This document shows positions 2,520 to 63,235 of a stretch of 64,000 bases of DNA, in pieces. The stretch is from Saprospiraceae bacterium (GTDB lineage: Bacteria > Bacteroidota > Bacteroidia > Chitinophagales > Saprospiraceae). The first letter of the stretch is position 1; each line of letters opens with the position of its first letter. The notes under the pieces are model-generated. The model saw nothing but the letters and a program-made list of their open reading frames with translations. It was not told the origin of the DNA and searched no databases. Position numbers and translations under genes: made by a program. The stretch spans positions 1 through 64,000 of the forward strand of contig JAHDGU010000006.1 of NCBI GenBank assembly GCA_020627535.1, read 5' to 3'.

Positions 2520-4997
2520 CTAGTCCTCTGCGACATGTCCTTGGTCGGCTTTCGCCAAAAGGAGATTGACACTATCGGTCAATGCAGATATCTGCTCGCT
2601 GAGCTTTTGCATGGTGCTATCCTTGTGCTCCAACTCCTCCTTGAGTTCTTGGATGCTTGCCAGCAAAAGAGGCACAAGCTCCACATAGTTGATACTCAAA
2701 AACTCTGTCTGCTCGCCTCGCTCATCGATACGCCTAGACCCTACAGTCACCAACTCTGGAAAATGCTGCTGTAGCTCTTGTGCGATCAAGCCCATCCGCT
2801 CCCCACTGGGGAGATTGAGGTCCTGGTACTTTCTCGTCTTAAAGCTGTAGCTGACGGGACGCAAACTGGAGAAAGCTTCCAATGCATTCAGGATCGGCTT
2901 GATGTCCTTCTTGAGGCGCTCATCTGATGAGCTTGTCAATTCTCCCGTGATATTGACATTGCCGACTACATCTAGTGCCGCAGTCGGCGTGGAAGTTCCG
3001 ATGCCGACGAATCCCGCGGCACGATGTACATCTGCTCCACTCTCTGTCCAGGGACCCTCGGGACCTAAGTCTGTGAAAGAAACCCACTCACTACCATTGT
3101 AACCTTGGAAGTCTCCGTCGTCATACTGAATCATACCAGCAGTCGTATCAAAGGCTGTCCACAACCTCAGACCTCGAGTGGCTATATCTCCAAATACATT
3201 GAGTTTGGTGGATGCGCTCGTGGTGCCGATTGCTACGTTTCCCTCTTGTGTCAAAGTCAGGCCGACAGCATTGTTGCTCATGAGACGGAAAGCGTGGTTG
3301 CTCGTGGTGCCGATGGAGGCTTCTGACCCATCAGATGACCACTCCGATATCACAGAGCTACCGGATCTGGAGACACGGATGCCATCCCCTGCGAAGTCGC
3401 CCTCTACGTGCAAGGTCGCTCCTGTGGGAGTGGTGGTGCCGATGCCTACATTGCCTTGCTCATAGATCGCGTCGGCACCATTGGCATACCATAAAGATGT
3501 ATCTGTCAATGAGGTCCAACCATTGGGTGTTCGCGCTTCAAAATCCGTGCCTGTGTATCGGATGGTGCCTTCATTGTCTTCTGTGGTGTTAGCTAGGCGT
3601 ATTCCTCCATCGACATCAAGTTGCTCCTGTGGACTAGCAGGGCCAATAGCTACTCTGCCATTGGAGGCAATGATCATGCGGTCTGGAGAACCAAACTCAA
3701 TATTTCCATTTGTACGAAGGCCTATGGTTCCAGGAGCGATCAGCCTCATCTCATTGCTCTCGTAGCCCAGCCTTCCTCGCTGAAAAGTGCCTTCATAGAA
3801 ATAGACCAACTGACCGATATCACCATCTAGTCTTAGGCCAGCCACTTGTGGATCTTTGATATGCAGATTTGCGAGGGGCTGGCTCGACAAGCCGATTCCG
3901 ACATCACCAGAATCAAAGTAGATATCGTCTCCATTGTAACTCCATACTGCAGGGTCGCCAGTATCCGTGAGTGACCGCCAGCCACTTGCTGTCCTACCCT
4001 CAAAGTCTGATCCCGTGTATCGGATAGTTCCTGAATTGGCATTGGAAGTGCTGCCAATATTGATCGCTCCGTTGATAGCAAGCTTTTCATTGGGCGAGGT
4101 GGTTCCAATACCTACATCTCCTTCCTCGGTGATAGACAATTTACTTGTGCCATTGGTTTGAAGCTGCACGTCATTGTCCGAGTCAAGAATAATACTTCCA
4201 TCTTCCAAAAAATTTCGAAGCGTAATATCATCTCCCCCAACATTACCTATACCCAAAAATCCACTCTGTACTCCAGAATCATAGAATCTCAGATAGGTGC
4301 CATTTGTGCCGTCCATTCTCAAGGTCGTATTCACTCCATTGAGGTGAAGAGCGGCACCGGGACTCGTGGTACCTATGCCCACCAAGCCGGATTTGCTGAT
4401 GGTCATTCTTGTGATGTCGTCAGTGTTCATCCGCAAGATGCTTTCTGCATCGATCGTGACGTCCCCACCCGTCTCGTCATTCTCGATCAATAGGTCGGTG
4501 CCAGAGTGACCGATGAATGCCTTTTGTGTAGCTCCTTCATAAAATCTGATATACTTAGACAAGTCTGCTTCTAGCCTGAGATCAGCAGCTCCGGAAGCAC
4601 CATCTAGGTGCAGCAATTCCTGTGGAGAAGTGGTACCAATACCTAGCAATCCACCACCGCTCAAAAACATCCTATTGGTATTGTCCGACTGAAACCAAAA
4701 GTCATCTGATGAATCAAAAATGATGTCATCCTCCTCACACTCAATATGCAAGTCTCCTCCACTCGGACTGAATTGCATCCACGCCCTATTTGTTGATGCT
4801 TCTCGCATGATGATTCCAAATTGAGAATCATCGGATCCCGTCTCGACGAGTATCAGATCGGGATCTCCTGTCTCAATGATAGGATCCGCCCCACTCCAGA
4901 CATTGATGCTTCCTACTGGCGCCCACTGGGCAGATAAAGATGATAGGGCTGTCGCCCAAATGAGGAGGACAATGATCGTCAAGAATCTAGGATACAT
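2520..4997 (-). CDS. Secreted tail-fibre-like protein with C-terminal S74 chaperone domain
   Basis: 825 residues. Signal peptide about 1-23 (cleavage after SLSAQ region), then a long repetitive body in which GIGTTSP-type segments (GIGTTSPQELLHL, GIGTTSPGAALHL, GIGTTSPNEKLAI, GIGTTTPTGATLH, GIGTSTPTAALDV) recur every 60-100 residues, typical of beta-helical trimeric fibres. The C-terminus (about 690-760, SSDERLKKDIKPI...LPSGERMGLIAQEL) is the peptidase S74 / intramolecular chaperone domain, which in phage tail spikes folds the trimer and cuts itself off. A predicted coiled coil follows (about 775-815). No phage genes are nearby, so this is likely a chromosomal surface protein, as is common in Bacteroidota. 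The iterated hairpin word occurs in both its signal peptide and its last codons. Confidence 0.85.
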   Translation of the reverse strand: MYPRFLTIIVLLIWATALSSLSAQWAPVGSINVWSGADPIIETGDPDLILVETGSDDSQFGIIMREASTNRAWMQFSPSGGDLHIECEEDDIIFDSSDDFWFQSDNTNRMFLSGGGLLGIGTTSPQELLHLDGASGAADLRLEADLSKYIRFYEGATQKAFIGHSGTDLLIENDETGGDVTIDAESILRMNTDDITRMTISKSGLVGIGTTSPGAALHLNGVNTTLRMDGTNGTYLRFYDSGVQSGFLGIGNVGGDDITLRNFLEDGSIILDSDNDVQLQTNGTSKLSITEEGDVGIGTTSPNEKLAINGAINIGSTSNANSGTIRYTGSDFEGRTASGWRSLTDTGDPAVWSYNGDDIYFDSGDVGIGLSSQPLANLHIKDPQVAGLRLDGDIGQLVYFYEGTFQRGRLGYESNEMRLIAPGTIGLRTNGNIEFGSPDRMIIASNGRVAIGPASPQEQLDVDGGIRLANTTEDNEGTIRYTGTDFEARTPNGWTSLTDTSLWYANGADAIYEQGNVGIGTTTPTGATLHVEGDFAGDGIRVSRSGSSVISEWSSDGSEASIGTTSNHAFRLMSNNAVGLTLTQEGNVAIGTTSASTKLNVFGDIATRGLRLWTAFDTTAGMIQYDDGDFQGYNGSEWVSFTDLGPEGPWTESGADVHRAAGFVGIGTSTPTAALDVVGNVNITGELTSSSDERLKKDIKPILNALEAFSSLRPVSYSFKTRKYQDLNLPSGERMGLIAQELQQHFPELVTVGSRRIDERGEQTEFLSINYVELVPLLLASIQELKEELEHKDSTMQKLSEQISALTDSVNLLLAKADQGHVAED
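2547..2560 (-). repeat. Iterated hairpin word, exact core, in coding sequence
   Basis: TTTTGGCGAAAGCC on the minus strand, in the last codons of the S74 gene, read as L-A-K-A. Confidence 0.7.
4946..4962 (-). repeat. Iterated hairpin word, GACA-loop variant, in coding sequence
   Basis: CATTTGGGCGACAGCCC on the minus strand, in the signal peptide of the S74 protein (read as I-W-A-T-A). The stem and the 5' flank match the consensus; the loop is GACA instead of GAAA. Confidence 0.5.
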
Positions 4998-5100
4998 GCT
5001 TTGGCTTTATTGGTGAAGACCAAAGATGTCCTTAATATCATGTCAATCGCCTCTATGGAAATGGGGATATTTTGTAGCGAATGGGCAGGAAATAGTGCAT

Positions 5101-5538
5101 CTATCTCAAGAGCTCAATAATCTCCTCATTGCGCTCTGCATCTACCAGCGGACAACTGTACAGACCTAAATCCACAGCAGATTCGGCCAAATAAGCCTCT
5201 AGAAACAGCCGTGCAAAGCCGCCTGCCTCTGCCGAGTCTGAAGGCAAAAATGAAGAAAGCACATTGACATAACAGGCGCTAGGCTCTGTAGATCCCAGCA
5301 AGGCTAGAAGCTCAGAGACATGAGATTCCTGTATCCACCCGTCCGGAAAGTCGCCGCTGATCGTCTTATAGTCTGAGTACTCCTTCGCCTCTACCATGAC
5401 TTCGATAAACTCTACAGGTCCGAGTAGATCCAGTCGAACCGTGCGTACCATATCCGTAGATCGACACGACACGAAAAAAACCAATATGATTATAGAAAAG
5501 ATGATTCTCATGCTTCCAAAATTGAATAATTGCTTCAT
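5101..5538 (-). CDS. Small lipoprotein ending the sigma-factor operon
   Basis: 145 residues with a lipoprotein signal ending FVSC (Cys25). The mature part is a short alpha/beta-looking domain with no family I recognise. The start chosen gives an ATGA overlap with the upstream membrane protein gene; an internal ATG nine codons later (MRIIFSI) would give a tidier signal peptide and cannot be excluded. It is the last of five minus-strand genes with gaps of 0-4 bases. It may be an accessory of the envelope-stress or surface-sensing circuit implied by that operon. Confidence 0.7.
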   Translation of the reverse strand: MKQLFNFGSMRIIFSIIILVFFVSCRSTDMVRTVRLDLLGPVEFIEVMVEAKEYSDYKTISGDFPDGWIQESHVSELLALLGSTEPSACYVNVLSSFLPSDSAEAGGFARLFLEAYLAESAVDLGLYSCPLVDAERNEEIIELLR

Positions 5539-9675: not shown

Positions 9676-9692
9676 GGGCTTTCGCCCAAATG
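9676..9692 (-). repeat. Iterated hairpin word, exact core, intergenic
   Basis: CATTTGGGCGAAAGCCC on the minus strand, between the sigma operon start and serC (4-bp stem GGGC/GCCC, GAAA loop). Confidence 0.7.
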
Positions 9693-9758: not shown

Positions 9759-10829
9759 ATGACAAAACACAACTTCTTTGCAGGTCCTGCGGTGCTTGAT
9801 CGGAGCGTCATGGACCAAGCGGCATCAGCTGTCGGCACATTTGATGATATGGGGCTTTCTATCCTTGAGATTTCGCATCGCAGCAAGCAATTTGTCGCGG
9901 TGATGGAGGAGGCAGAAGCTCTAGTGCGCGAGCTCCTCAATCTCTCAGATGACTATGCTGTACTCTTCCTCACAGGTGGTGCGAGTAGTCAATTCTTCAT
10001 GGTGCCGATGAATATCCTTGCCTCTGGAGATACAGCAGGATATGTCGACACGGGCACATGGTCGACCAAGGCCATCAAAGAGGCTAAGCTCTATGGCAAT
10101 ATCGAGGTCCTTGCTAGCAGCAAAGAAGACGGCTTCAATCACATACCTAAGCCGGATGTACCTGACCATCTGAGATACTTACACATCACGAGCAACAATA
10201 CCATCTACGGTACGCAGTACAAGGGCTTTCCCAACACCTCAGTACCTATCGTCGCAGATATGTCCTCTGACATCTTCAATCGTCCGATTGATGATATCTC
10301 CAAGTTTGGCGTGATATACGCTGGCGCGCAAAAGAATCTCGGTCCTGCAGGTACCACACTGGTCATTGTCCGCAAAGACTTGCTCGGTAAAGTGGATCGC
10401 CAGATCCCTACGATGCTCAACTATGAGACGCATATCGCCAAGAATAGCTCATTCAATACACCTCCTGTCTTCCCGATCTATGTGTGTATGCTCAGCCTCA
10501 GATGGCTCAAAGCTAATGGCGGCCTCAAGGTCATGCAAGCCAAAAACGATGCCAAGGCCAAAGTGCTCTATGATGAGATCGATCGCAATAGCCTCTTCGC
10601 AGGCGTAGCTGCCACTGAGGATCGCTCCAATATGAATGTCACCTTCACGATCAACAATGCTGATCTCGAAGGCAAGTTTCTGGACTTCGTCACTGAGCAT
10701 GATATCATGGGTCTCAAAGGACATAGATCTGTCGGTGGATTCCGTGCATCGATCTACAATGCGCTCAAGACGGAGAGTGTCCATCACCTTGTGAGCCTCA
10801 TGAAAGAGTTTGAGTCCATGCATGCCTAA
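9759..10829 (+). CDS. serC: Phosphoserine aminotransferase
   Basis: 356 residues, the normal length. Converts 3-phosphohydroxypyruvate plus glutamate to phosphoserine plus 2-oxoglutarate in serine synthesis; the same enzyme type also serves pyridoxal phosphate synthesis, which fits pdxA elsewhere in the window. The start HNFFAGPAVLD is the family's N-terminal signature. The PLP lysine lies in YAGAQKNLGPAGTTL (about 190-200), and the C-terminus VGGFRASIYNAL is typical. It begins four bases behind a -7 box. Its end overlaps the next gene by 8 bases, so the two are co-transcribed. Confidence 0.96.
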   Translation: MTKHNFFAGPAVLDRSVMDQAASAVGTFDDMGLSILEISHRSKQFVAVMEEAEALVRELLNLSDDYAVLFLTGGASSQFFMVPMNILASGDTAGYVDTGTWSTKAIKEAKLYGNIEVLASSKEDGFNHIPKPDVPDHLRYLHITSNNTIYGTQYKGFPNTSVPIVADMSSDIFNRPIDDISKFGVIYAGAQKNLGPAGTTLVIVRKDLLGKVDRQIPTMLNYETHIAKNSSFNTPPVFPIYVCMLSLRWLKANGGLKVMQAKNDAKAKVLYDEIDRNSLFAGVAATEDRSNMNVTFTINNADLEGKFLDFVTEHDIMGLKGHRSVGGFRASIYNALKTESVHHLVSLMKEFESMHA

Positions 10830-11565
10830 GCACCTGAGGGACATCATACATTTTGGCGAAAGCCAGATACCTCTCAAAATCTACTATGAGTGGCGTGACA
10901 ATGTGCGTGTCGCCTTCGGAAAAAATGCTGTGTATCTGCGTATTCCAAGATTCCTACCCAAGTTCCAAAAGACACGAGAAGTCGAGAAAGCAAAAGTCTG
11001 GGCACATCGGATGCTCGAGAGGCGCGAAGATCTGAGATCGAGATTTGCCCCGAGCAGCTATGCAGACGGTGATGTGCTTGAGATGCGCGGCGAAGAGTTT
11101 CCTCTGGTCATACGCGAAGCGAATCGCAAAAGCAGCAAAGGTGAAATCGCCCAAGATGGACATATCCATCTGAGCCTTGTGCCCGGACTCCCGCAAGCAG
11201 AGCGCCTCAAGACCATCCGACATCTACTCAGTCGACTGATGGCGCAGCACTTTCGACCCATGCTAGAGGCACGTGTCCATGCGCTTAATACCCAGCACTT
11301 CCAGGAGAAGATCAATAAGATCGCCCTCAAGTACAACAGCAGTAACTGGGGCAGTTGCTCGACCAACAATATCATCAATCTATCTACGCGCCTGCTCTTC
11401 ACACCGGATCCAGTGCTGGACTATGTCATCATCCACGAGCTAGCCCATCTCAAGGAGATGAATCACGGTCCCAGATTTTGGGCATGGGTGGAGCGCGCCG
11501 ATCCTGACTACAAGACCAAGGTCAAGTGGCTCAAGGAGCATGGACATAAGTGTGATTTTCGGTAG
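10822..11565 (+). CDS. YgjP-like (DUF45) zinc metallopeptidase
   Basis: 247 residues from the ATG at 10822, which overlaps the serC stop by 8 bases; a TTG four codons earlier is also possible. The C-terminus has the zinc-peptidase motif HELAHLKEMNHGPRFW: HExxH with a downstream His, as in SprT/YgjP proteins. It is preceded by the family motif WGSCSTNNIINLSTRL. Cytoplasmic, no signal peptide. Substrate unknown. Being coupled to serC is probably a matter of genome compaction. The iterated hairpin word lies in its first codons. Confidence 0.85.
   Translation: MPKHLRDIIHFGESQIPLKIYYEWRDNVRVAFGKNAVYLRIPRFLPKFQKTREVEKAKVWAHRMLERREDLRSRFAPSSYADGDVLEMRGEEFPLVIREANRKSSKGEIAQDGHIHLSLVPGLPQAERLKTIRHLLSRLMAQHFRPMLEARVHALNTQHFQEKINKIALKYNSSNWGSCSTNNIINLSTRLLFTPDPVLDYVIIHELAHLKEMNHGPRFWAWVERADPDYKTKVKWLKEHGHKCDFR
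10849..10864 (+). repeat. Iterated hairpin word, consensus copy, in coding sequence
   Basis: CATTTTGGCGAAAGCC near the start of the YgjP-like gene, read as H-F-G-E-S. Confidence 0.7.
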
Positions 11566-12954: not shown

Positions 12955-12971
12955 GGGCTTTCGCCCAAATG
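12955..12971 (-). repeat. Iterated hairpin word, exact core, intergenic
   Basis: CATTTGGGCGAAAGCCC on the minus strand, identical over 17 bases to the copy at 9676-9692. It lies between the rpsF promoter and the broken T9SS gene. Confidence 0.7.
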
Positions 12972-13075: not shown

Positions 13076-14777
13076 ATGAAATCCTCTATCCCTACACTCC
13101 TCGTACTGCTATTCCTTTCTGGTATCGGAGCATCACTATCCGCACAGGAAGTCTTTTACTATCCTGATGAGGCAGGTCACATGCACTTTACTAGCTCTGG
13201 CATCACCTACTTCAAAGACCAGCTCATTGTTGCAGAATACGGCAGGCATCTCGATGATGCGTTTCTTTTCTCCACTGCCAGGCTGAAGGCCATTGATCGC
13301 ACTGGTGAAGTGTCTATGGAGATCGACTATAGTGCCGACTTCACCAACTATATCACACTAATCGGTGAGTCACAATCCGCCCTATGGTTTACGCTAAGGT
13401 CGAGTACTTGCCCACAAGCCAATTCTCAACAGCATCTCCACTACATGGTAGATAGTACCACTCAAGGCTCTTATCGACTGCCATCAAATGACCCTGATCA
13501 GTCTGAGGTCCATCTTTTCTTTGACCCTGAGACAGGCATAGCAGCAAGTACCGACTGGAGTTTCACCTTGTATACGACTTCTGGAGATTATACACTTGAC
13601 AACTCCGAGATATTCCCCACCTACAATGTGGTACAGACATCAAGGAACCGCTGGCTCGCCCAGAATGACGAGCAACAGTGGTGGATACACTGGGATGCAA
13701 TCAACCAAGAATTGACTGCCAGCTCAGCAGATGTCAACACCTACGACTATGACATGTATGACTTCTATGCTTACAATCATGTCTCAGGAAGCGGTGGCTA
13801 TTATATACCAGTACGGCGACTATATCTTGACAGATACAGTTCTCAGACCTTATGATACTCTCTTGGCTGAGGAGATCTTCGTATGATTTGGGATCAGCTC
13901 TCTTCATGGGATCCGTGGCTATGACAGTGACTCTCAGAGCTACTATTATTTTGATGAAGACTATCAACCGGTCAGAGAGATACACATCGCATCCAGAGAT
14001 CACTTCGCATATCTCGACTCCAATGGGTATGCAGCATACAATCTTCGATACCAGGGGCAGCAAAACGCAGACGCAGATTACTTCATCACACAGTACGATG
14101 GGGACACCCTCGCCTTAGAAGCGACACGAGATCTTTCTCTGAATGATGTAGAACTCATCAATCCGTGGGTCGAAAACTATGAAGAAGGACCTCCCTTAGA
14201 CTATATCAGGATGGACAACATCAGCATTCAAGTGAGCAATATGGGAAGCGCCGATATTACAGCCTTTGACCTGAGCTTCATCCACACGAATAGCGGTGCT
14301 GATGGCTGTCCGATCGTCATCTCAGAACACATTCAAATAGAAACACTGATCGAGGCGGGAATGATAAAAAATATTGCCATCCCCTTTGACTCCATAGTCC
14401 AATGGAGTGGACAAGATGCAGAAGTCTGCTTTTATATCTCAGACATACACCCTAGACTTGACCACAATCTAGACAACAATAGCCTCTGCATACCCATAGA
14501 CATATTGAGCTCAAGCTTGGACATCAACGCCGATGTGCTCTCATCTCTTGTGACACCCAATCCGACAACTTCTTCGTTCATGATCTCGGCTTCAGAAATA
14601 TTCGATGGCGGTAAATTATTTATCACGGATATCTCAGGCCAGATAATTTATTCTGATACCTTTTTTTCCGATAATAAATATCAATTGGCTCCATATTCTT
14701 CAGGTATTTATTTCTATGCTCTTTGGAGTGCCGATGCCAATCACTTCAGTACTGGTAAAATCATTTTATCCCCATGA
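13076..14777 (+). pseudogene. Broken T9SS-secreted protein gene (frameshift plus nonsense codon)
   Basis: The first part (13076-13855) has a signal peptide (ending SLSAQ) and a beta-rich domain, then goes out of frame near 13798-13808. Dropping one base there restores YQYGDYILTDTVLRPYDT. The restored frame meets an in-frame TGA at 13884-13886 and then runs open to 14777, ending in a T9SS type A sorting domain (about the last 80 codons, VTPNPTTSSF...YSSGIYFYAL...GKIILSP). The layout matches the next gene, a tandem paralogue. Two independent lesions suggest decay rather than one sequencing error. ATG 13076 is preferred over a TTG three codons earlier. Confidence 0.75.
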
Positions 14778-16417
14778 GAAAATTCTTACTACTAGGGATA
14801 TTTTTCAGCGTTATTTCACTCTCTGCTCAGGAGATTATTTATCGTTCAAATAATTCTTTCGAAATATGCACTCGTATTGTTCAATTGATCTCATTTGGAG
14901 ATAGACTTGTCATTATAGAAAACACAAAAGATGGTTACTTTGACAGGCATCATATCAGATGTATTGATACATCCGGAAGTGAATTGTGGTCACGCTTTTA
15001 TCGGCCTAGTGATGGAATGCCTTACGTAAGATTCTATGATGATGAGCGTATGTGGATTACACTGAGATCAGGCAATTGTGGTGAACCAGATTGTAGTTTG
15101 AGCTTGATCGCCATCGACAAAGATGGTAATCAGACCATGAGTGCGACAGGTGAATGGTACAGGGATGCCAATATCTGCAGAATCAGGTATTCCCTAGATC
15201 CTCAAACAGGCGTAGCAATTTTCAGAAATAATTACTTCCACCTCCACTTGGTAGACACACTTCTTGAATTAGAGGTATTTCCCATAGATACAACACCACC
15301 ATGGGAAGTAACAGGCTATCCAAATTCTGAGCGTATCATTGTCCAATCAAGTCCTACGCGCTGGCTTGTAGAGGATACCCTACAGAATCTGAGCTACTGG
15401 ATAGACTACGACTCACTGAACATTAAATTGGACAGCACAAGAAGAATTGAAATGTTTGATCGCGATTATCCAAGGTATAGCTCCATCATCAGTTCTTCTG
15501 CGTTCTATCAGCATGGAGATACATTGATCATTTTGGACGAAAACCTTGACATCACGGATACAATTTTCATTCCGTCATCAATATGCAATTCCTATTTGCA
15601 GTATGAGAATGGTTATTATGCTTGTCGCGATGATGAGCTCGATCGAATTACATACTACGATCTAGACTATCTCCCACTAGACACATTATTTCTTCAAAAT
15701 AATCCACTACTCTCCGCTGTCACTCGTGATGGATACGCAGCCTACAATTATGGTGAAGAGAGCTTTCATGAGTACATCATTACCAAGACTGAATCCGGCA
15801 CCATTTCATACAATGTCGACAATATTATCAGTTTAGATACTGTCTTTTTTCATCGATACAGTAGCAGTGTTATTGATCTATATGGCTGCGAGGTACGTGA
15901 AGTACTGGTAGACAGCCTAGGATTTACCATTACGAATCATAGCGACACTGCTCTGGACTCTTTTCGCTTCGGCCTGGCCCTCGAACATCCTTGCAGTCAT
16001 TGTTTATTCTATCTGGAACAATCTATGGGATTCGGTACGACCATCTCGCCCGGTGCCTCACATACATTCTACATGGAAGATGTGACACTAAAGTTCAAAC
16101 CAAGAAACCATGACATGGAGTCAATTTGCTTTCATGTGTCCAATGTCAGCCCTAAAGTTGACATGGTCACATCAGATAATCTGATCTGTCGCAGTAGCGA
16201 TGTGCTCACCTCTTCAGTAGATGTGCTCATTGACCTACATCGCACATTAGTTTATCCCAATCCTAGTAATGGCTCCGTATATTTCGACACCGATCTCAAT
16301 CTGGCTGACGCCCAATTGGTGGTATATAATCAAGAAGGTGTTCAAGTCCATGCCAGCGCATTCACACCGCAACGTGCCTATGAATTTGACTTTCCTTCTG
16401 GTATCTATTACTATTAG
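14774..16417 (+). CDS. T9SS-type secreted protein, tandem paralogue, with its last 18 residues cut off by a stop codon
   Basis: 547 residues. Signal peptide about 1-18 (ending SLSAQ), a beta-rich middle of unknown function, and a T9SS sorting domain near the end (VYPNPSNGSVYFD...VQVHASAF...FPSGIYYY). It starts with an ATGA overlap on the previous gene. TAG at 16415-16417 ends it early: reading through gives IINRDKPVSSGKLILSK and a TGA at 16469-16471 that overlaps the next start codon. So the ancestral gene very likely ran to 16471. Loss of the terminal strand should impair T9SS export. The middle resembles that of its broken neighbour. Function unknown. Confidence 0.75.
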   Translation: MRKFLLLGIFFSVISLSAQEIIYRSNNSFEICTRIVQLISFGDRLVIIENTKDGYFDRHHIRCIDTSGSELWSRFYRPSDGMPYVRFYDDERMWITLRSGNCGEPDCSLSLIAIDKDGNQTMSATGEWYRDANICRIRYSLDPQTGVAIFRNNYFHLHLVDTLLELEVFPIDTTPPWEVTGYPNSERIIVQSSPTRWLVEDTLQNLSYWIDYDSLNIKLDSTRRIEMFDRDYPRYSSIISSSAFYQHGDTLIILDENLDITDTIFIPSSICNSYLQYENGYYACRDDELDRITYYDLDYLPLDTLFLQNNPLLSAVTRDGYAAYNYGEESFHEYIITKTESGTISYNVDNIISLDTVFFHRYSSSVIDLYGCEVREVLVDSLGFTITNHSDTALDSFRFGLALEHPCSHCLFYLEQSMGFGTTISPGASHTFYMEDVTLKFKPRNHDMESICFHVSNVSPKVDMVTSDNLICRSSDVLTSSVDVLIDLHRTLVYPNPSNGSVYFDTDLNLADAQLVVYNQEGVQVHASAFTPQRAYEFDFPSGIYYY

Positions 16418-23547: not shown

Positions 23548-23564
23548 ATTCACACGAAAATTGA

Positions 23565-48096: not shown

Positions 48097-48806
48097 TCAT
48101 CAATCTCATGGCGACTCCGCGCAATCTTAGCACTGCGCTTATGTACAGCTTTCGCAGCCGATCAGATTGCAAAGTGATTGACGAGCCATTCTTTGGTCAC
48201 TTTCTGGTGCACTCTGACGCATTTCGTCCGAGTCGCGATGAGACACTCGCTCAGTGGCCGAGCAAGATGTCCGACATCCAAAAATGGATCGAGCGGGAAT
48301 GCCAAGACACAGAGCATCTCTTTCTCAAAAACATGGCTTCTCATCATCTAGGAGTTGACTTCAGCTATGCTCTTGGGTACACCAACATCTTTGTGCTCCG
48401 TCATCCCGGATTGATCATCAACAGTTTCACTAAGGGTGTCGTCACACCAAACATGGGAGATATTGGTCTGGAGCTACAACATGAAATTTACGATGAGCTC
48501 CTTACTCATGGAGCTCGGTGCATTGTCATCGATTCCGAAGAGTTGTTGCAAGATCCTGCTAGCTATCTTGCTTCGCTCTGTGCTAAGCTTGGAATTCCTT
48601 GGCAGCCCGAGATGCTCATTTGGCCGAAAGGCCCCAAACCAGAAGACGGACCATGGGCTAAGTACTGGTACACCAATCTCCACAGCTCGACAGGATTCCA
48701 GACTTACGTCAAAAAATCTAGAAAAGTCCGAGCGGAGCACCAAAGCTTGCTAGACGAGTGTATGCTCCACTACAGATATTTGTCCTCTCACAAAATGTCC
48801 GTCTGA
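48093..48806 (+). CDS. Sulfotransferase-like protein coupled to an aminotransferase
   Basis: 237 residues. Start INLMATPRNLSTALMYSF matches the 5'-phosphosulfate-binding loop region of P-loop sulfotransferases (here ATPRNLSTAL), and VLRHPGLIINSF is the 3'-phosphate site. Cytoplasmic. TGATG coupling to the branched-chain-type aminotransferase downstream. I recall this gene pair, sometimes fused, from other bacteria, where it is annotated only by family. The acceptor is unknown. Confidence 0.8.
   Translation: MIINLMATPRNLSTALMYSFRSRSDCKVIDEPFFGHFLVHSDAFRPSRDETLAQWPSKMSDIQKWIERECQDTEHLFLKNMASHHLGVDFSYALGYTNIFVLRHPGLIINSFTKGVVTPNMGDIGLELQHEIYDELLTHGARCIVIDSEELLQDPASYLASLCAKLGIPWQPEMLIWPKGPKPEDGPWAKYWYTNLHSSTGFQTYVKKSRKVRAEHQSLLDECMLHYRYLSSHKMSV
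48617..48633 (+). repeat. Iterated hairpin word, compensated stem variant, in coding sequence
   Basis: CATTTGGCCGAAAGGCC in the sulfotransferase gene, read as I-W-P-K-G-P. Stem GGCC/GGCC, GAAA loop. Confidence 0.6.
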
Positions 48807-49717
48807 TGCTACAGCAATTCAATGAGCGCAATCGAGATATCAAGGTTCATGTCAATGGCAAGATCGTCCATCGTGACGAAGCTAGGATTTCTGTCTTTGA
48901 CTCTGTGGTCCAAGGTGGCGATGCTGTCTGGGAAGGGCTAAGGATTTATGATGGCAAGGTGTTTTGTCTAGATCGACATCTGGATCGATTGTACGCCTCG
49001 GCGCATGCCATGCTGTTTCAGGATGTTCCACCACGTGAGCACATCATTGGTGCCTTGATGGATCTGCTGCAAGCCAATGACATGTACGATGATGTACACG
49101 TGCGACTCACCCTCACACGTGGAGAGAAGATTACCAGTGGCATGGATCCAAGGCTCAATCAGTCTGGTCCCGGTCTGATCATATTGCCTGAGTGGAAGCC
49201 ACCAGTCTATGACAATAAGACCGGCATCAGTGTCATCACTTCAGCCATCCGTCGCAACAATCCACAATTCTTAGATTCCAAGATCCATCACAACAATCTC
49301 ATCAATAATATCCTTGCCAAGATTCAGGCCAATGAAGCAGGAGCAAGCGCGGCACTAATGTTGGACGAGAGAGGTTTTGCTGCTGAGCTCAATGGGACAA
49401 ATGTCTTCGTCATTCGTGGCGAGCAGGTCTTGACACCATATGCTCACAATTGCTTGCCGGGCATCACCCGAGGACTTGTTCTCGAGATCTGTCAAGAGCA
49501 GTCTTGGGCGCACAGCCAGGCAGACTTATCTCTTACGGAGATGTATACTGCTGATTTTGCATTTGGGACAGGGACTATGGGTGAATTGACACCGATATCC
49601 AAGCTTGATGGGAGAGAGATACAGGTCAGCGCTTTCGCGCAAATGCGCTTTGACGAGATCTGTGACGCCTTCGTCAACAAGCGAGACGTGCTGAGTACAG
49701 ATATCCCGCGACAATGA
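48806..49717 (+). CDS. Aminotransferase class IV (branched-chain aminotransferase-like)
   Basis: 303 residues from the ATG at 48806, whose A is the last base of the sulfotransferase TGA. Fold type IV PLP enzyme: start VHVNGKIVHRDEARISVFDSVVQGGDAVWEGLRIY (IlvE-like), PLP Lys in LDSKIHHNNLINNI (about 153-166), and LNGTNVFVIRG, GITRGLVLEIC and FGTGTMGELTPI. Possible activities are branched-chain amino acid, D-amino acid or aminodeoxychorismate-type reactions; the sequence favours an IlvE-like one. Coupling with the sulfotransferase suggests a shared substrate. Confidence 0.88.
   Translation: MLQQFNERNRDIKVHVNGKIVHRDEARISVFDSVVQGGDAVWEGLRIYDGKVFCLDRHLDRLYASAHAMLFQDVPPREHIIGALMDLLQANDMYDDVHVRLTLTRGEKITSGMDPRLNQSGPGLIILPEWKPPVYDNKTGISVITSAIRRNNPQFLDSKIHHNNLINNILAKIQANEAGASAALMLDERGFAAELNGTNVFVIRGEQVLTPYAHNCLPGITRGLVLEICQEQSWAHSQADLSLTEMYTADFAFGTGTMGELTPISKLDGREIQVSAFAQMRFDEICDAFVNKRDVLSTDIPRQ
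49629..49645 (-). repeat. Iterated hairpin word, compensated stem variant, in coding sequence
   Basis: CATTTGCGCGAAAGCGC on the minus strand, identical over 17 bases to the intergenic copy at 20553-20569. Inside the aminotransferase gene, read as S-A-F-A-Q-M. Confidence 0.6.
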
Positions 49718-50118: not shown

Positions 50119-50182
50119 GTGTATGTCACACTTCCGTGCAAATCAATTGCATAGGTAGTTCATCAAACCTTCTTTCACGTAT

Positions 50183-52053: not shown

Positions 52054-53610
52054 TCAACCAGCCCACTCTTCGCGATCTAGACTTCGATACTGGATCGCTT
52101 CTGCCAGATGCTCCATTGCAATACTCTCTGATCCTGCCAAGTCGGCAGCAGTGCGCGCTACCTTCAATATCCGATCATAAGCTCGCGCAGAGAGATTGAG
52201 TTTGGTCATAGCAGTTTTTAAGAGCATCGTACATGCCTGATCAAGTTGACAAATCTCTCTGACCATCCTTGTGGGCATTTGTGCATTGGCATGCAAGCCA
52301 TTGACTTTTTCAAATCTACTCTCTTGAATTTTCCGAGCACGGACGACCCTCTCACGGATATCACCACTTGTCTCGCCTTTGTATTGGTGGATCGAAAGCT
52401 CATCATAGCTCACAGGCGTCACCTCCACATGGAGATCAATACGATCCATGAGTGGCCCGGAGATCTTGTTGAGATACTTCTTGACGACCCCTGGACCACA
52501 GACACAATCTTTTTCTGGATGATTGTAGTAGCCACATGGACAAGGATTCATACTTGCGATGAGCATGAAATTAGCTGGGTAATCTACGCTAAGCTTTGCT
52601 CTTGAAATCGAGACCTTGCGATTTTCCATCGGCTGTCGCAGGACCTCTAGCACTGTCCGCTTGAATTCTGGCAACTCGTCTAGAAACAAGACACCATTGT
52701 GTGCAAGTGAAATCTCGCCTGGCATGGGATTACTCCCTCCACCGACCATAGCTACATCGCTGATCGTGTGATGTGGGGAGCGAAATGGTCGTCTCGCCAT
52801 GAGGGCTGATCCGTGCTCAAGCTTACCCGTGACGGAGTGAATCTTAGTCGTCTCTAGTGCTTCGTATAGTGACATTGGCGGTAAGATGGTCGGAAATCTT
52901 CGACTGAGCATGGTTTTCCCGGCACCGGGCGGTCCTATCAAGATCACATTGTGTCCTCCCGCGGCAGCCAACTCAAGCGCCCTTTTGATATTTTCTTGCC
53001 CCTTCACATCATTGAAATCAACAAGGTGGATCCCATTTTCTTCCTCAAACTCAGTCCTTGTATCCACGGTCACCGGAGTCAGGCTTTTCTCTCCATTGAG
53101 AAAATCCACAGCCTCGGATATGTGCTCTACCCCATAGACTTCAAGTTGATCCACGATTGCAGCTTCTCTTGAAACTGATTTGGGAAGTATGATGCCTTTG
53201 TACTTTTCCTTGCGCGCTTGAATTGCTACTGGCAACGCTCCTTTGAAGGGTCTAAGGCTGCCATCCAAGGATAGCTCTCCCATCATGAGATAATCCGAAA
53301 ATCGCTCACTACTCATCTGTCCTGTACTCGCCATGATACCCATGGCAATCGGGAAGTCGTATGCCGTACCTTCCTTACGGATATCAGCAGGTGCCATGTT
53401 GACCACTAGCTTGATCCTAGGCATCCGATAACCACTGTTCTTAAGAGCAGCCTCTATCCGCTGATAGCCTTCTTTGACTGCATTATCTGGCAGACCTACT
53501 AGATAGTAGCCCAACTTACCTGCGGGGACATTGCCACCACTATTGACCTCGATAGTTAATGTCGTCGAGTCGACTCCGGATACTGCGCCGGCATAGTTTT
53601 TTACAAGCAC
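52054..53610 (-). CDS. comM: YifB/ComM-family Mg-chelatase-like AAA+ ATPase
   Basis: 518 residues, normal length. N-terminal Lon-protease-like (ChlI) domain (about 20-175). AAA+ domain (about 190-400): P-loop LIGPPGAGKTMLSRRFP, Walker B GVLFLDELPEF, the family's zinc-type Cys region MNPCPCGYYNHPEKDCVC. C-terminal Mg-chelatase domain (about 400-515). In naturally competent bacteria ComM drives branch migration of incoming DNA; orthologues also occur in species not known to be competent. It is the last gene of the gpmI operon, ten bases after the metallo-beta-lactamase gene. Confidence 0.94.
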   Translation of the reverse strand: MLVKNYAGAVSGVDSTTLTIEVNSGGNVPAGKLGYYLVGLPDNAVKEGYQRIEAALKNSGYRMPRIKLVVNMAPADIRKEGTAYDFPIAMGIMASTGQMSSERFSDYLMMGELSLDGSLRPFKGALPVAIQARKEKYKGIILPKSVSREAAIVDQLEVYGVEHISEAVDFLNGEKSLTPVTVDTRTEFEEENGIHLVDFNDVKGQENIKRALELAAAGGHNVILIGPPGAGKTMLSRRFPTILPPMSLYEALETTKIHSVTGKLEHGSALMARRPFRSPHHTISDVAMVGGGSNPMPGEISLAHNGVLFLDELPEFKRTVLEVLRQPMENRKVSISRAKLSVDYPANFMLIASMNPCPCGYYNHPEKDCVCGPGVVKKYLNKISGPLMDRIDLHVEVTPVSYDELSIHQYKGETSGDIRERVVRARKIQESRFEKVNGLHANAQMPTRMVREICQLDQACTMLLKTAMTKLNLSARAYDRILKVARTAADLAGSESIAMEHLAEAIQYRSLDREEWAG

Positions 53611-54508: not shown

Positions 54509-55020
54509 TGCTCAAGTATTGTGACATCCAGGCTCAGACTAGATAGTATGCCGTCCTGTTTCGTCGTCTCTGTGGTGTACAAATATCCTTTGGGGCCCAC
54601 GGACAAGATTTCTATCTTTTCTTGTCCGAGTAGTTTGCTCCTTCTTTCCCCTTGCATTTCAAGTCCTGCCACACGCACCATTCTCACTGCCTCGTCGTCA
54701 CTCATAGCTTGATAGATGACTGTATCTCCGCTTTTCTCGGAAGAGTACAAGCCGATCAGGCTCGGTTTATTGAGATGAAAACCCTTGAGCAATTTCCGCA
54801 ATTCTGTCTCAAGATCGTGGTCCTCGAGTGTCTTACTCTCTGATTGGCCTGCGACCGTGAGTTTTTTTCGCACCGTATAGCTCTTATTCTTATCGTGATT
54901 TTGCAAGAGTTGGTCTATATACTGCTCATAATCAAATTGTTCTGAGCTCTGGTTTTGATCTTTCTGATTTACACAAGACCACAGTAGGATGCCGATGATC
55001 AGGAGTCTCCAAGTCTTCAT
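54505..55020 (-). CDS. Lipoprotein of unknown function in the gpmI operon
   Basis: 171 residues. Lipoprotein signal with lipobox LWSC (Cys16). The mature part begins with an acidic, Gln-rich region, then an alpha/beta domain (VRKKLTVAGQSESKTLEDHDLETELRKLLKGF...YLYTTETTKQDGILSSLSLDVTIL). I do not recognise a family. Four-base overlaps with gpmI upstream and the metallo-beta-lactamase gene downstream. Confidence 0.75.
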   Translation of the reverse strand: MKTWRLLIIGILLWSCVNQKDQNQSSEQFDYEQYIDQLLQNHDKNKSYTVRKKLTVAGQSESKTLEDHDLETELRKLLKGFHLNKPSLIGLYSSEKSGDTVIYQAMSDDEAVRMVRVAGLEMQGERRSKLLGQEKIEILSVGPKGYLYTTETTKQDGILSSLSLDVTILEQ

Positions 55021-56528
55021 AAGATGAGAGATTTTCCAGTCATATGCTCAGAGACTTCCAGCCCCATGATATCGAGTATTGTGGGTGCCACATCTGCCAA
55101 GATTCCATCTCGCAGAGCTTCCACTTGATCATCGATCACAATGATCGGAACCAAGTTGGTCGTATGTGCCGTATGAGGGCTTCCGTCTGGCTTGATCATG
55201 ACATCTGCATTTCCGTGATCCGCGATGATGACGACTGCATAGTTTTTTTCTTCGGCTTTCGCCAAAATGCGTGCTAGCTCGGCATCTACTGTCTCTGCCG
55301 CCTTGACTGCTGCCTCAAAGTCTCCAGTATGTCCTACCATGTCGGTATTAGCAAAGTTGAGGCAGACAAAATCTGCTTGTCTAGCATCAATCTCCGCAAG
55401 TGTTTTATCCGTCAACTCCCTGGCGCTCATTTCTGGCTGTAGATCATATGTGGCTACTGCCGGACTGGGCACCAATATCCTTGTTTCACCTTCATAGGCT
55501 TCTTCCCTTCCTCCAGAAAAGAAATAGGTCACATGGGGATACTTTTCTGTCTCTGCCGCCCTCACCTGAGTACCGCCATTTTTACTGATCACTTCTCCCA
55601 GTGTAGCTGGCAAGATTTCTTTATCAAACAGGATATGAAGACCTTGGAAAGCTTCATCATAAGGCGTCATGGTCACAAAGTGAAGATTCAGAGAATCCAT
55701 TCCCTCTTCTGTAAGACCAGATTGGGTCAGTGCTTGCGTGATCTGTCGCGGGCGGTCGGTCCTATAGTTGAAGAAGACGACTACGTCTCCACTCTTGATC
55801 GGTGCGAAGTCCTTGGATTTGATTGGTATCATGAACTCGTCCGTAATCTCTCTTTGGTACATTTTGGCGACAGCCTCAGATAGACAGACCACTTGCTGAT
55901 CAGCCTGACCATGTACTAGGAGATCATAAGCCTTCTTGGTGCGTTCCCAGCGTCTGTCTCTATCCATAGCATAGTACCGACCGATGACTGAAGCTAGCTT
56001 GACATGGTCCATAGGATCCAAAAGCTCTTCCAGCTGTCGTAGATACATTTCACCACCAGTAGGAGCTGTATCTCGGCCGTCAAGAAAAGCATGGATTTTC
56101 ACAGACTCTACTCCTTGGTCATCCAGCGTATGACAGATAGACCTGAGATGATCTATATGGCTGTGGACGCCGCCATCAGACACGAGACCCATGAGATGTA
56201 GCGTCGCTCCTGATGCCTGTGCAGTGTGGATTGCGTCTTTGAAAGCCGGTAGCTCCTTGAGGCTGTCATCCACAATGGCATTATTGATCCTTGAGAGTTC
56301 TTGATAGACCACACGCCCTGCGCCGATATTGAGGTGCCCCACTTCAGAATTCCCCATTTGACCCGCAGGTAATCCTACTTCTTCTCCATATGTCACAAGT
56401 GTGGCATGAGGAGCTGTTTTCATCAAGTCATCCATCGTAGGAGTCTTGGCGGCTGCAAGAGCGCTGATGAGCTTATCTTCATTGAGCCCCCAGCCATCAA
56501 GGATGAGGAGCATACACTTCTTCTTCAT
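55017..56528 (-). CDS. gpmI: 2,3-bisphosphoglycerate-independent phosphoglycerate mutase
   Basis: 503 residues, normal length. Interconverts 3- and 2-phosphoglycerate in glycolysis using two Mn ions. LLILDGWG (about 6-13, first metal Asp), GNSEVGHLNIGAGRVVYQ (about 58-75, phospho-Ser), RDTAPTGG and a C-terminal FVCLNFANTDMVGHTGDFEAAVKAAE with IIADHGNAD supply the remaining metal ligands. First gene of a four-gene operon (gpmI, lipoprotein, metallo-beta-lactamase, yifB). Its -7 box sits four bases from the ATG. It contains two copies of the iterated word. Confidence 0.97.
   Translation of the reverse strand: MKKKCMLLILDGWGLNEDKLISALAAAKTPTMDDLMKTAPHATLVTYGEEVGLPAGQMGNSEVGHLNIGAGRVVYQELSRINNAIVDDSLKELPAFKDAIHTAQASGATLHLMGLVSDGGVHSHIDHLRSICHTLDDQGVESVKIHAFLDGRDTAPTGGEMYLRQLEELLDPMDHVKLASVIGRYYAMDRDRRWERTKKAYDLLVHGQADQQVVCLSEAVAKMYQREITDEFMIPIKSKDFAPIKSGDVVVFFNYRTDRPRQITQALTQSGLTEEGMDSLNLHFVTMTPYDEAFQGLHILFDKEILPATLGEVISKNGGTQVRAAETEKYPHVTYFFSGGREEAYEGETRILVPSPAVATYDLQPEMSARELTDKTLAEIDARQADFVCLNFANTDMVGHTGDFEAAVKAAETVDAELARILAKAEEKNYAVVIIADHGNADVMIKPDGSPHTAHTTNLVPIIVIDDQVEALRDGILADVAPTILDIMGLEVSEHMTGKSLIL
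55254..55269 (-). repeat. Iterated hairpin word, consensus copy, in coding sequence
   Basis: CATTTTGGCGAAAGCC on the minus strand in gpmI, read as I-L-A-K-A. Confidence 0.7.
55860..55875 (+). repeat. Iterated hairpin word, GACA-loop variant, in coding sequence
   Basis: CATTTTGGCGACAGCC, in gpmI but on the strand opposite the gene, where the codons read A-V-A-K-M. Confidence 0.5.
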
Positions 56529-56655: not shown

Positions 56656-57048
56656 ATGAAATACATCCTCAGCACTATCTTATGCATATCTCTCAGCGTC
56701 ATTTCCGCCCAGGACGGTGCACGCAAGGCCATCGCCGCCGCTATAGGCAGTGGAGACGTCGGCATACTTGCCGATCATCTTGCCCGAGAATTGACGCTTT
56801 CTTTTCACGATGAAGAACGTATTTTGGCGAAAGCCGCAGCTGAGAGCAGACTGCGCAAGTTCTATGCAGAGAATAAAGCCATCACCTACAAGGTAAGGCA
56901 CAACGGCGGGGCCATGCGAGACAAGAGTAGCTATATGGTCGGTCGATTGATGACAGAAAATCTCAGCTACCGCGTATTCGTCTACTTGGAAAAAGATCGC
57001 AAAGGCGTCTCCAAGATCTCAGAAATCCGTTTCGAGAAGCCTCTATAA
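56656..57048 (+). CDS. Secreted DUF4783 protein
   Basis: 130 residues. Signal peptide about 1-18 (ending VISAQ). The rest (DGARKAIAAAIGSGDVGILADHLARELTLSFHDEERILAKAAAESRLRKFYAENK...YMVGRLMTENLSYRVFVYLEKD...ISEIRFE) matches DUF4783, a small cystatin/NTF2-like fold of unknown function found in Bacteroidota. Converges with the TIGR02757 gene with a 6-base overlap. The iterated hairpin word lies in the middle. Confidence 0.88.
   Translation: MKYILSTILCISLSVISAQDGARKAIAAAIGSGDVGILADHLARELTLSFHDEERILAKAAAESRLRKFYAENKAITYKVRHNGGAMRDKSSYMVGRLMTENLSYRVFVYLEKDRKGVSKISEIRFEKPL
56821..56835 (+). repeat. Iterated hairpin word, exact core, in coding sequence
   Basis: ATTTTGGCGAAAGCC in the DUF4783 gene, read as I-L-A-K-A. 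Confidence 0.7.
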
Positions 57049-60586: not shown

Positions 60587-61837
60587 CTAGGAATTTGACT
60601 CTTCTTCAAACTCGGCTGCGAGGATTTTCATGACATTGTCTATTGTCTCTTCTTCAAGGTCCGACCTTCTGAGCAATTCTTCTTTGCTTAGATTCAGAAC
60701 ACTCTTGGCGGTATCGCATCCGATATCCTTGAGTGCGTCGATGACCCAGTTTTCGATTTCATCATTGAATTCTTCTAGATCGACATCGTCCATCTCGAAG
60801 GTGTCGGTATCTCGATACACATCGATTTCAAATTCCGAAAGTTGGCTAGCCAGCTTGATGTTGGCTCCACCTTTTCCAATCGCAAGAGACACTTGATCTG
60901 GCTTAAGGAATACAGACGCCTTTTTCGCCTCCAGATTAAGTTCGATACTTGTGACCTTAGCAGGCGTCAGTGCTCTTTGGATGAGGAGCGAGGTATTATT
61001 GGTGTAGTTGACGATATCAATGTTCTCGTTTTTGAGCTCTCTTACGATACCATGGATGCGACTACCTTTCATACCGACACATGCTCCTACTGGATCGATC
61101 CTGTCATCATATGACTCTACGGCAACCTTCGCTCTTTCACCTGGAAGTCGCACGATCTTCTTGATGGTGATAAGACCGTCTTCTATCTCTGGTACCTCTT
61201 GTTCCATGAGCTTCTCCAAGAATCTCGTGTCTGTACGAGATACCACCACTAGAGGATTGTTGTTTTTCATCTCCACGCGGCTGATGATCCCTTTCACCAT
61301 GTCACCCTTGCGGAAGTAATCGCCTCGGATGGCATCAGACTTGGGCAGGATCAGCTCATTTCCTGTGGCGTCATCGATGACGAGGAATTCTCTTTTGAGT
61401 ATTTGATGTACTTCTGCGAGTACGATCTCACCCACGCGGTCTTTGTACTTCTTGAAGATCTCGTCTTTTTCGAGCTCCATGATCCGAGAGATTAGCGTCT
61501 GACGCGCTGCCATGATGGCCCTACGGCCAAAGTCAGCGAGATAGAGCTGCTGATAACACTCTTCTCCGACTTCATAGTCTTCTTCGATCTCGTTGGCCTC
61601 GGTGATACTGATTTGTTTGAGATCATCCGTCACCTCGCCATCCGGCACGATTTCTCTTACTCGCCAGAGCTCAAGGTCTCCTTTCTGCGTGTTGACAATG
61701 ACATCAAAGTTCTCGTCGCTACCGTATTTCTTTTTGATCAGCGTGCGAAATACATCTTCGAGCACCCGCACCATCGTGGGGCGGTCTATGTTTTTTCCCG
61801 TTTTAAATTCCGAGAACGTATCTACCAAGTTCATCAT
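60587..61837 (-). CDS. nusA: Transcription termination/antitermination factor NusA
   Basis: 416 residues from the ATG at 61837 (MMNLVDTFSEFKTGKNI); a further in-frame ATG one codon later is possible, while the longer frame would run into rimP. N-terminal polymerase-binding domain (about 1-110), S1 domain (about 125-195), two KH domains (about 215-340, with GMKGSRI and GKGGANIKLASQL), and an acidic, helical tail (about 345-416). Stimulates pausing and intrinsic termination. Fourteen bases after rimP and 61 bases before infB. The hairpin with U-run at the operon front is a possible target of its own feedback. Confidence 0.96.
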   Translation of the reverse strand: MMNLVDTFSEFKTGKNIDRPTMVRVLEDVFRTLIKKKYGSDENFDVIVNTQKGDLELWRVREIVPDGEVTDDLKQISITEANEIEEDYEVGEECYQQLYLADFGRRAIMAARQTLISRIMELEKDEIFKKYKDRVGEIVLAEVHQILKREFLVIDDATGNELILPKSDAIRGDYFRKGDMVKGIISRVEMKNNNPLVVVSRTDTRFLEKLMEQEVPEIEDGLITIKKIVRLPGERAKVAVESYDDRIDPVGACVGMKGSRIHGIVRELKNENIDIVNYTNNTSLLIQRALTPAKVTSIELNLEAKKASVFLKPDQVSLAIGKGGANIKLASQLSEFEIDVYRDTDTFEMDDVDLEEFNDEIENWVIDALKDIGCDTAKSVLNLSKEELLRRSDLEEETIDNVMKILAAEFEEESNS

Positions 61838-62328: not shown

Positions 62329-62338
62329 TCCGATACTG

Positions 62339-62346
62339 CAAATATA
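62339..62346 (-). promoter_or_regulatory. -7 promoter box of rimP-nusA-infB
   Basis: TATATTTG on the minus strand, exact fit. The transcript should start near 62332, so the hairpin at 62301-62328 forms almost at its 5' end. Confidence 0.5.
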
Positions 62347-62410
62347 AGGCTCAGCATGCAATCTATATTTTTGTGGGTTGTCTCATCAAGCACTCAGAAA
62401 GGTGTAAACC

Positions 62411-63235
62411 ATGATTCAAGAGCACATAGAAGCGACCAAGTATATCACAGATCGGGTCGAAAATTTCCCGACGATCGCTATTCTCACAGGCACCGGACTG
62501 GGGCTTTCAACTGAGTTGGAGTCAGCCACTACTCGGTTGCCATATCGCGGTATACCGTACTTCCCGTCGGCGAGTTCACGCGGTCATGACGGCGAACTCA
62601 TCATATCTCATCTTGGAGGGCAGGACGTCGCCGTATTCTCCGGCAGGCTGCACTACTACGAGGGGCACGATATCCAGTCCTGTGGATTTCCGATTCATCT
62701 GATGGCGACCCTGGGAGTCAAAAATCTCATCATGTCCAATGTCAGTGGCTCCGTAAATCCTAAAATGACCCAAGGAGACCTCGTGCTGATCAAAGACCAT
62801 ATCAATCTTATGGGTGTCAATCCGCTACGAGGACAGAGAAACCAGGACGGCTATATCAGCTTCCCAGAGATGCGTGAGGCTTACGCCAAAATGTACCACC
62901 AACCATTGATCCAGTTTTGCAAATCGACAAGTCTCAATCTCCAAGAAGGCGTATATGCTGCCTTTGCTGGACCAAGCCTTGAAACTCCGCAAGAATACAA
63001 GATGGCATCCATACTAGGAGCAGATCTCGTCGGTATGTCTACCGTACCAGAGGTCATAGTAGCCGCGGCATATGGCATACGCACCAATGTCATTTCACTG
63101 GTCTCCAATGAGTGTTTTGGCGAAAGCCCGCAACCAACTAGCATAGAGACAGTTTTAGCAGTGGCTGAGGCGAAGCGATCAGATGTCTTGAAAACCATCG
63201 TCCAGCTGATCGGACACATATCCAGTACTACTTGA
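62411..63235 (+). CDS. punA: Purine-nucleoside phosphorylase
   Basis: 274 residues, normal for the trimeric PNP family. Signatures: [14 protein letters not shown] (about 24-37), [11 protein letters not shown] (about 77-87, phosphate-binding His), [26 protein letters not shown] (about 113-138), [16 protein letters not shown] and [12 protein letters not shown] (about 215-226). Cleaves guanosine/inosine with phosphate in purine salvage. Its stop TGA overlaps the uvrA ATG (TGATG). Two copies of the iterated word lie in its second half. Confidence 0.96.
62878..62893 (-). repeat. Iterated hairpin word, GTAA-loop variant, in coding sequence
   Basis: CATTTTGGCGTAAGCC on the minus strand, in punA, read on the plus strand as A-Y-A-K-M. 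GTAA is also of the GNRA class. Confidence 0.55.
63115..63129 (+). repeat. Iterated hairpin word, exact core, in coding sequence
   Basis: TTTTGGCGAAAGCCC in punA, read as F-G-E-S-P. Confidence 0.7.

Follow-up and report, generated by a model that had tools for sequence, protein, structure and literature searches.

A hairpin motif dispersed through Saprospiraceae genomes and its possible role as a self-label on single-stranded DNA

A short DNA hairpin is repeated throughout the genome of a Saprospiraceae bacterium (assembly GCA_020627535.1). We analyzed it in a stretch of 64,000 nucleotides (contig JAHDGU010000006.1, positions 1 to 64,000 of the forward strand), which we call the window, as well as in the rest of this genome and in related genomes. 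The hairpin is a dispersed DNA motif that is defined by its structure, is under selection, and occurs in dialects. As for its role, we lean, with somewhat less than even confidence, towards a self-label that would be read on single-stranded DNA (ssDNA), most likely for self-recognition in natural transformation.

The exact core of the motif, GGCGAAAGCC, occurs 11 times in the window, on both strands and at the places given by the original prediction. Only 0.09 copies are expected from dinucleotide shuffles, and 0 of 100 shuffles reached 11. To define the full unit, we used 464 kb of the source genome, sampled in stretches. Among the 56 exact cores in this sample, a sharp 5' flank, C-[A/T]-T-T-T-[T/G], directly abuts the core, and there are no strong common letters downstream. 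The T-rich flank that had been noticed before is thus a defined part of the motif. The stem is free to vary, so that the unit is C-W-TTT-K, a 3–4 bp stem with C:G as its inner pair, and a loop of the form G-N-(A/C)-A. The most frequent stems are GGC (63 sites), CGC (23), GCC (11), CAC (5), and GAC (5), with single cases of others, and the loops in use are GAAA, GACA, GGAA, GTAA, GGCA, and GCAA. The full unit has 113 sites in the 464 kb, or one per ~4.1 kb; the spacing of sites overall is about 2–4 kb.

For the window, we required a T-rich 5' flank, a 3-bp stem closed by C:G, and a G-N-[AC]-A loop. This model finds 32 sites, while 1.1 are expected from an order-2 Markov simulation (maximum 5). 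With one exact core that has a poor flank (at 38028), the total is 33. The strict CWTTT form accounts for 16 window sites, compared to 0.08 expected. The original prediction was right that the hairpin is repeated, but its count of about 22 was too low, and a GAAA loop, which it had described, holds for its four paired-stem variants but not overall, as GACA, GGAA, GTAA, and GGCA are common.

The source genome (4.09 Mb) contains 411 exact cores (202 on the + strand and 209 on the – strand) but just two copies of the reversed word. The signal is therefore not peculiar to the window or to one mobile element. Protein sequence does not explain it either, as the original prediction had argued. When we shuffled synonymous codons in 418 predicted genes, 2.8 full-model sites remained, compared to 101 in the real genes, with a maximum of 7 in 100 shuffles. 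Together with substitutions at variable residues (see below), this rules out codon or protein constraint as the cause.

Genes are neither sought nor avoided: ~90% of the sites are in genes, which is near the random expectation of 93%, and 142 genes bear sites, compared to 142.6 under a Poisson spread. Because the T run precedes the hairpin and ~90% of sites are intragenic, the motif is not an intrinsic terminator, in agreement with the original prediction. Housekeeping genes carry sites, and the widest gaps fall on efflux, SusCD/sulfatase, and secreted-protein genes, although these are examples only. We also noticed a 17-kb site-free stretch of the source genome (L018:4918-14354) with sulfatase and SusC/SusD-like genes and genes for proteins sorted by the type IX secretion system.

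Pairing and the loop rule

To test if the two arms of the stem pair, we fixed the flank and the loop and left the stem free. Pairing plays no part in the choice of these sites, so the test is not circular. With a GAAA loop, 65 of 76 stems pair (86%), and with other GNAA loops, 29 of 60 do. In contrast, none of 40 stems pair with GNGA loops, and just 1 of 34 (3%) with GNTA loops. This loop-dependent contrast was repeated in four other genera. A fifth genus (G100 and G190) had pairing in 11 of 37 cases with GAAA, and its sites were too few to judge other loops. Motif-poor genomes showed 0–5% pairing whatever the loop.

GNAA loops are also more than 10-fold above a reversed-sequence control, whereas GNGA loops are not enriched (19 versus 17 in the source genome; also 2 versus 3 and 9 versus 5). 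GNCA loops are used in the source genome. By DNA energy rules, the GAAA and GAGA versions are equally stable, and given the exclusion of GNGA, the choice of loop therefore reflects recognition and not stability.

These loops bear on whether the motif could act as RNA, for instance as a processing or protein-binding hairpin in transcripts, which we consider improbable. GAAA is a classical RNA tetraloop, and sense sites have a slight excess in the first tenth of genes (Kolmogorov–Smirnov p 0.034). However, GNGA, which is a standard loop of the RNA GNRA type, is missing, and GNCA occurs. Both gene strands are used, if anything with more antisense than sense sites (278 versus 204 in pooled samples), and the antisense sites are spread uniformly along genes. 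There is no clear preference for G.T (or G.U, in RNA) over other stem mismatches, and there were zero matches to Rfam families in the window. Since GNGA is excluded and the strand of the gene does not matter, we favor DNA over RNA as the carrier, and the original suggestion of an RNA processing site does not hold up.

In these hairpins both arms change yet stay complementary, which would be pointless if the duplex were read. The simplest reading is therefore that one strand is read when it is single. This sets the motif apart from HIP1 of cyanobacteria, which had been proposed as a possible parallel. HIP1 is also a short palindrome-like word that is iterated through the genes of a clade, but it is one fixed self-complementary 8-mer (GCGATCGC), linked to GATC and CGATCG methyltransferases (PMC4390886). 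Our motif has an asymmetric loop, a stem that stays paired although its letters are free to vary, and one distinguished strand. On the chemical side, DNA mini-hairpins with C-closed GNA or GNNA loops, such as d(GCGAAGC), raise the nuclease resistance of aptamers (PMC4686876). These are chemical or engineered cases, and in the papers that we searched, we did not find any natural genome-wide use of stable DNA mini-hairpins.

The same structural evidence for an ssDNA reader would also suit a site of replication, repair, or recombination with no role in uptake: a Chi-like site, a primase start, a fork-restart site, or a hairpin that stops an exonuclease. Chi is read as single-stranded DNA, and Chi and oriented chromosome sites are likewise short, frequent, and intragenic. 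Furthermore, the single strands would be made by universal processes, positions are conserved (see below), and the spacing of sites fits. But the motif is a hairpin and not a linear word, and unlike Chi or sites like KOPS (FtsK-orienting polar sequences), it has no replication-strand skew, which is usual for such sites. We examined six contigs of at least 80 kb and found no skew; a 60:40 skew is disfavored by 4.9 log units, 70:30 by 24, and 75:25 by 42. This also goes against the idea of a chromosome-organizing site oriented by replichore. Patchiness within a genus and dialects, described below, are unexpected for a universal process as well. Overall, we view a replication, repair, or recombination site as unlikely, but in the form of a strand-symmetric repair or restart site it is the most serious of the alternatives.

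Origin, conservation, and dialects

To see how sites arise, we aligned the codons of gpmI across 28 genomes. The three sites that we examined in the source genome and a congener are in columns without gaps, where the residues vary and the codons of other species are unrelated. The sites have therefore come about by point changes. Another explanation that we considered is a mobile palindrome, dispersed by a Y1 transposase that is of the IS200/IS605 type or is associated with REP elements. Such transposases recognize short hairpins in ssDNA that carry a guide sequence on the 5' side. More broadly, the proteins of REP/RAYT, IS200/IS605, and integron attC elements read folded ssDNA hairpins in which a short guide is 5' or extrahelical. 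However, those elements insert, are mostly intergenic, and need a Y1 transposase or an integrase, whereas our sites arise by point change within genes, which are not avoided. Also, the Y1 transposase (Pfam Y1_Tnp) is missing from the source genome and from several motif-rich genomes and is present in motif-poor ones, so its distribution does not follow the motif. An origin by insertion or transposition is ruled out by the gpmI alignment and by this distribution, and for Y1_Tnp the mobile palindrome is refuted; we consider this explanation extremely improbable.

Positions are often kept between species. We compared one genome (G155) with two congeners (G027 and G226), with 67–77% identity in the aligned DNA. 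Most sites that combine a good T flank with closure by C:G recur as sites in one or both relatives. Among the three, loop swaps of GCAA/GTAA and GAAA/GGAA keep the GNAA rule. At L183:10599, the stem is GTC/GAC in two species and ATC/GAT in the third, which is a double compensatory change. Some sites have been gained or lost. These genomes also have unrelated dispersed high-copy repeats: one of ~320 bases in G155 (L183:11233-11551) and one of 70–100 bases (L183:1-107) with many copies in G226.

Template switching can produce perfect stems, so mutation bias or the correction of quasi-palindromes might leave perfect hairpins that have no function. Such a process would not hold positions with compensatory change, and it would select neither GNAA loops, nor a T-rich 5' flank, nor genus dialects. 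We consider it very improbable.

Matches of its RecA assign the source genome to the Saprospiraceae. To examine the distribution of the motif, we counted the pattern TTNNGCGNAAGC and its reversed control in 248 genomes of the same family, many of which share the design. The source genome has 1084 matches to the pattern versus 18 to the control, and other motif-rich genomes have 2027 versus 57, 1834 versus 30, 1703 versus 31, 1324 versus 85, and 1283 versus 69. Motif-poor genomes are near background (e.g., 13 versus 13 or 11 versus 13). The pattern is patchy even within one genus, with 165 versus 9 in one genome and 10 versus 9 in another. In the remaining families of the order, counts are near the control. 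The same is true of most of the phylum, except for many members of one Flavobacteriaceae-like genus, where counts exceed the control by a factor of roughly three to six. In one genome of the Flavobacteriaceae-like genus g149 (G641, L418-L423), we saw a weaker excess of TGC/GGC-GAAA hairpins with a T-rich flank; these sites look similar but are few.

A low count could mean that a genome uses another dialect. In three motif-poor genomes (G198, G007, and G105), the top words that we checked were only tandem or clustered repeats, with no alternative dispersed word. We also noticed a tandem array of ~40 nearly perfect 267-base units in the first 10.6 kb of a G105 contig (C33, L392), which probably encodes a large repetitive surface protein.

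The stem-loop rule is common to the genera, and the 5' flank is genus-specific. It is CWTTTK in the source genome's own genus, TTTT in g27, [CA]TTC in G030, CATTT in g61 and G156, and GTTTT in g99. The loop rule is G-N-A-A in the relatives and G-N-[A/C]-A in the source genome. In G030, intergenic copies such as CTTTCGGCGAAAGCCAAAAAA (L021, L031, and L171-L177) are bordered on either side by T-rich and A-rich sequence. These copies may double as bidirectional terminators, as the DNA uptake sequences (DUS) of Neisseria do.

Even spread over the chromosome, a patchy phyletic pattern, and dialects would also fit a fast-changing defense pair, with the hairpin as a self-marker and DNA without it destroyed when single-stranded or replicating. 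In two scans of viral contigs, we found 96 and 68 stretches with matches, nearly all with a single match, so that the viral contigs show single scattered matches only. These numbers are about those of a rough chance estimate, so we rejected carriage of the motif by phages. However, we did not find any defense gene tied to the motif, and no defense system is known to use a hairpin self-marker of this kind. A defense marker seems distinctly unlikely.

Sites in the window

Here we give each site as its flank, stem, loop, and stem, with its positions in the window and its strand. The four paired-stem variants of the original prediction, with GCGC/GCGC (20553 and 49629) or GGCC/GGCC (23501 and 48617) stems and GAAA loops, are all at those coordinates. 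They are catttG-CGC-GAAA-GCG-C at 20553–20569 (+), which is intergenic; tttttG-GCC-GAAA-GGC-C at 23501–23517 (–), sense in the open reading frame (ORF) 22510–23571; catttG-GCC-GAAA-GGC-C at 48617–48633 (+), sense in a sulfotransferase-like gene; and catttG-CGC-GAAA-GCG-C at 49629–49645 (–), antisense in a class IV aminotransferase-like (branched-chain/D-amino acid) gene. Other intergenic sites are catttg-GGC-GAAA-GCC-C at 9676–9692 (–), with a 4-bp stem, the same sequence at 12955–12971 (–), and tttttg-GGC-GAAA-GCC-C at 38053–38069 (+). The exact core GGCGAAAGCC whose 5' flank is poor is at 38028–38037 (+).

Three genes contain sites in both orientations. In the rRNA adenine dimethylase gene, catttt-GAC-GACA-GTC at 44966–44982 (–) is antisense and tttttt-GGC-GGAA-GCC at 45042–45058 (+) is sense. 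In gpmI, catttt-GGC-GAAA-GCC at 55253–55269 (–) is sense, with substitutions and no insertion relative to its homologs, and catttt-GGC-GACA-GCC at 55860–55876 (+) is antisense. In the purine-nucleoside phosphorylase gene, catttt-GGC-GTAA-GCC at 62877–62893 (–) is antisense and tgtttt-GGC-GAAA-GCC at 63113–63129 (+) is sense.

ORF 2520–4997, with a Peptidase_S74 domain, has cctttt-GGC-GAAA-GCC at 2546–2562 (–), which is sense, and the strict form catttg-GGC-GACA-GCC at 4946–4962 (–). Other sense sites are catttt-GGC-GAAA-GCC at 10849–10865 (+) in a YgjP-like metallopeptidase gene, catttg-GGC-GACA-GCC-C at 34577–34593 (–) in a di-haem cytochrome c peroxidase-like gene, tctttg-GGC-GAAA-GCC at 41019–41035 (–) in an acyl-CoA dehydrogenase-like gene, and tatttt-GGC-GAAA-GCC at 56820–56836 (+) in a DUF4783 gene. 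Antisense sites are found in serC (cttttg-CGC-GCCA-GCG at 10318–10334, –), panC (catttt-GGC-GAAA-GCC at 25526–25542, –), and pdxA (cttttt-GGC-GGAA-GCC at 44119–44135, +). At the start of recA is gatttg-CAC-GGAA-GTG, at 50128–50144 (–). We confirmed comM/yifB (a Mg chelatase-like AAA ATPase, TIGR00368) at 52054–53610; it holds zero sites.

Further sites are tttttg-GCC-GACA-GGC at 24661–24677 (+), cttttg-CTC-GACA-GAG at 46542–46558 (–), and tttttt-GAC-GTAA-GTC at 48700–48716 (–). The weaker sites are caattg-GGC-GTCA-GCC at 16302–16318 (–), antisense in ORF 14774–16417; one with stem CTC and loop GGAA at 24291–24307 (+); atttta-CGC-GACA-GCG at 37655–37671 (+); ttcttg-GTC-GCAA-GAC at 41135–41151 (–); gctttt-CTC-GGAA-GAG at 54730–54746 (+); and ctctta-CTC-GCCA-GAG at 61654–61670 (+), antisense in nusA.

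A possible role in natural transformation

The closest parallels are DUS of the Neisseriaceae and the uptake signal sequences (USS) of the Pasteurellaceae. Like our motif, these occur in hundreds to thousands of copies, on both strands and within genes, far above a codon-aware background. Some copies act as terminator-like inverted repeats between genes, which may also hold for the hairpin. DUS and USS also have genus dialects (Frye et al., PMC3630211), as the hairpin does. Because the hairpin resembles uptake sequences (PMC3630211) in its copy number, its symmetry, its dialects, its random placement in genes, and the way its sites arise by substitution, we suggest a role in uptake. The original prediction had listed a DNA uptake sequence among its options, and it fits in number, place, orientation, and dialects. 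It does not fit in that DUS and USS are fixed linear words that are read, or are predicted to be read, by minor pilins of type IV pili, whereas the hairpin keeps only its pairing, its loop, and its T-rich flank. Also, the type IV pilus appears to be lacking: among 63 genomes, strong matches to the T2SSE/PilB-PilT ATPase were found in just two (G087 and G128), and there was none in the source genome. Because nearly all motif-rich genomes lack these motor ATPases, we rejected uptake based on type IV pili.

Candidate genes for transformation are present, namely those for ComEC, DprA (in all but three genomes), RecA, and a helix-hairpin-helix (HHH) protein, which is often encoded beside comEC. Riemerella anatipestifer, another member of the Bacteroidota, transforms via ComEC, DprA, ComF, RecA, and an HHH protein, and it also uses outer-membrane proteins that are unlike known machinery (PMC8459023). 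Pilus-free transformation therefore exists in the Bacteroidota, and such genomes could use a signal.

Still more tentatively, we propose that the motif is a structural address label by which these bacteria would recognize their own DNA in pilus-independent natural transformation. The label would be a folded ssDNA hairpin in which the stem letters are free, the loop follows a fixed rule, and the 5' flank is specific to the genus. Since the stem letters pair only in a single strand, a putative protein would read the folded hairpin and the T-rich flank on ssDNA. The likeliest setting would be natural transformation, in which DNA entering the cell becomes single-stranded at ComEC before DprA and RecA act on it. 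If the reader favored hairpin-bearing strands, the cell would retain DNA of its own kind, and repeated recombination would spread and maintain the motif, much as happens with uptake sequences in Neisseria and Haemophilus. The dialects of the genera would then reflect a joint change of reader and motif, and congeners without sites might have lost the reader.

Several observations weigh against this proposal. In known systems, the specificity of uptake is exerted outside the cell and on double-stranded DNA. A 3–4 bp hairpin needs single strands, so that any selection would need to come at a later step of the pathway. ComEC, DprA, and HHH proteins are found in motif-rich and motif-poor genomes alike and do not track the motif; ComEC, DprA, and HHH/ComEA-like genes are near-universal and hence uninformative as motif-tracking candidates. 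Among the competence genes that we tested, none tracks the motif, and we did not find a reader protein. Coding composition accounts for only part of the mild antisense preference, and the depletion of sites from acquired genes rests on examples only.

Every known kind of element that we considered fails at least one of the defining features that we tested. We did not find an earlier description of the motif in the open-access papers that we searched (subscription papers and preprints were outside our search). Known genome-wide address words are linear. In this motif, what selection keeps in ordinary genes is the pairing of the stem, together with a rule for the loop and a flank that differs by genus. 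If it is an uptake label, it would be the third independently evolved signal of the uptake type and the first that is structural rather than a word, and it would give a molecular handle on the poorly understood pilus-independent transformation of the Bacteroidota. In that case, a folded oligonucleotide (such as CATTTTGGCGAAAGCCA) could serve directly as bait for the putative reader protein. If the motif instead acts in replication, repair, or defense, it would reveal an ssDNA signal of a new kind.

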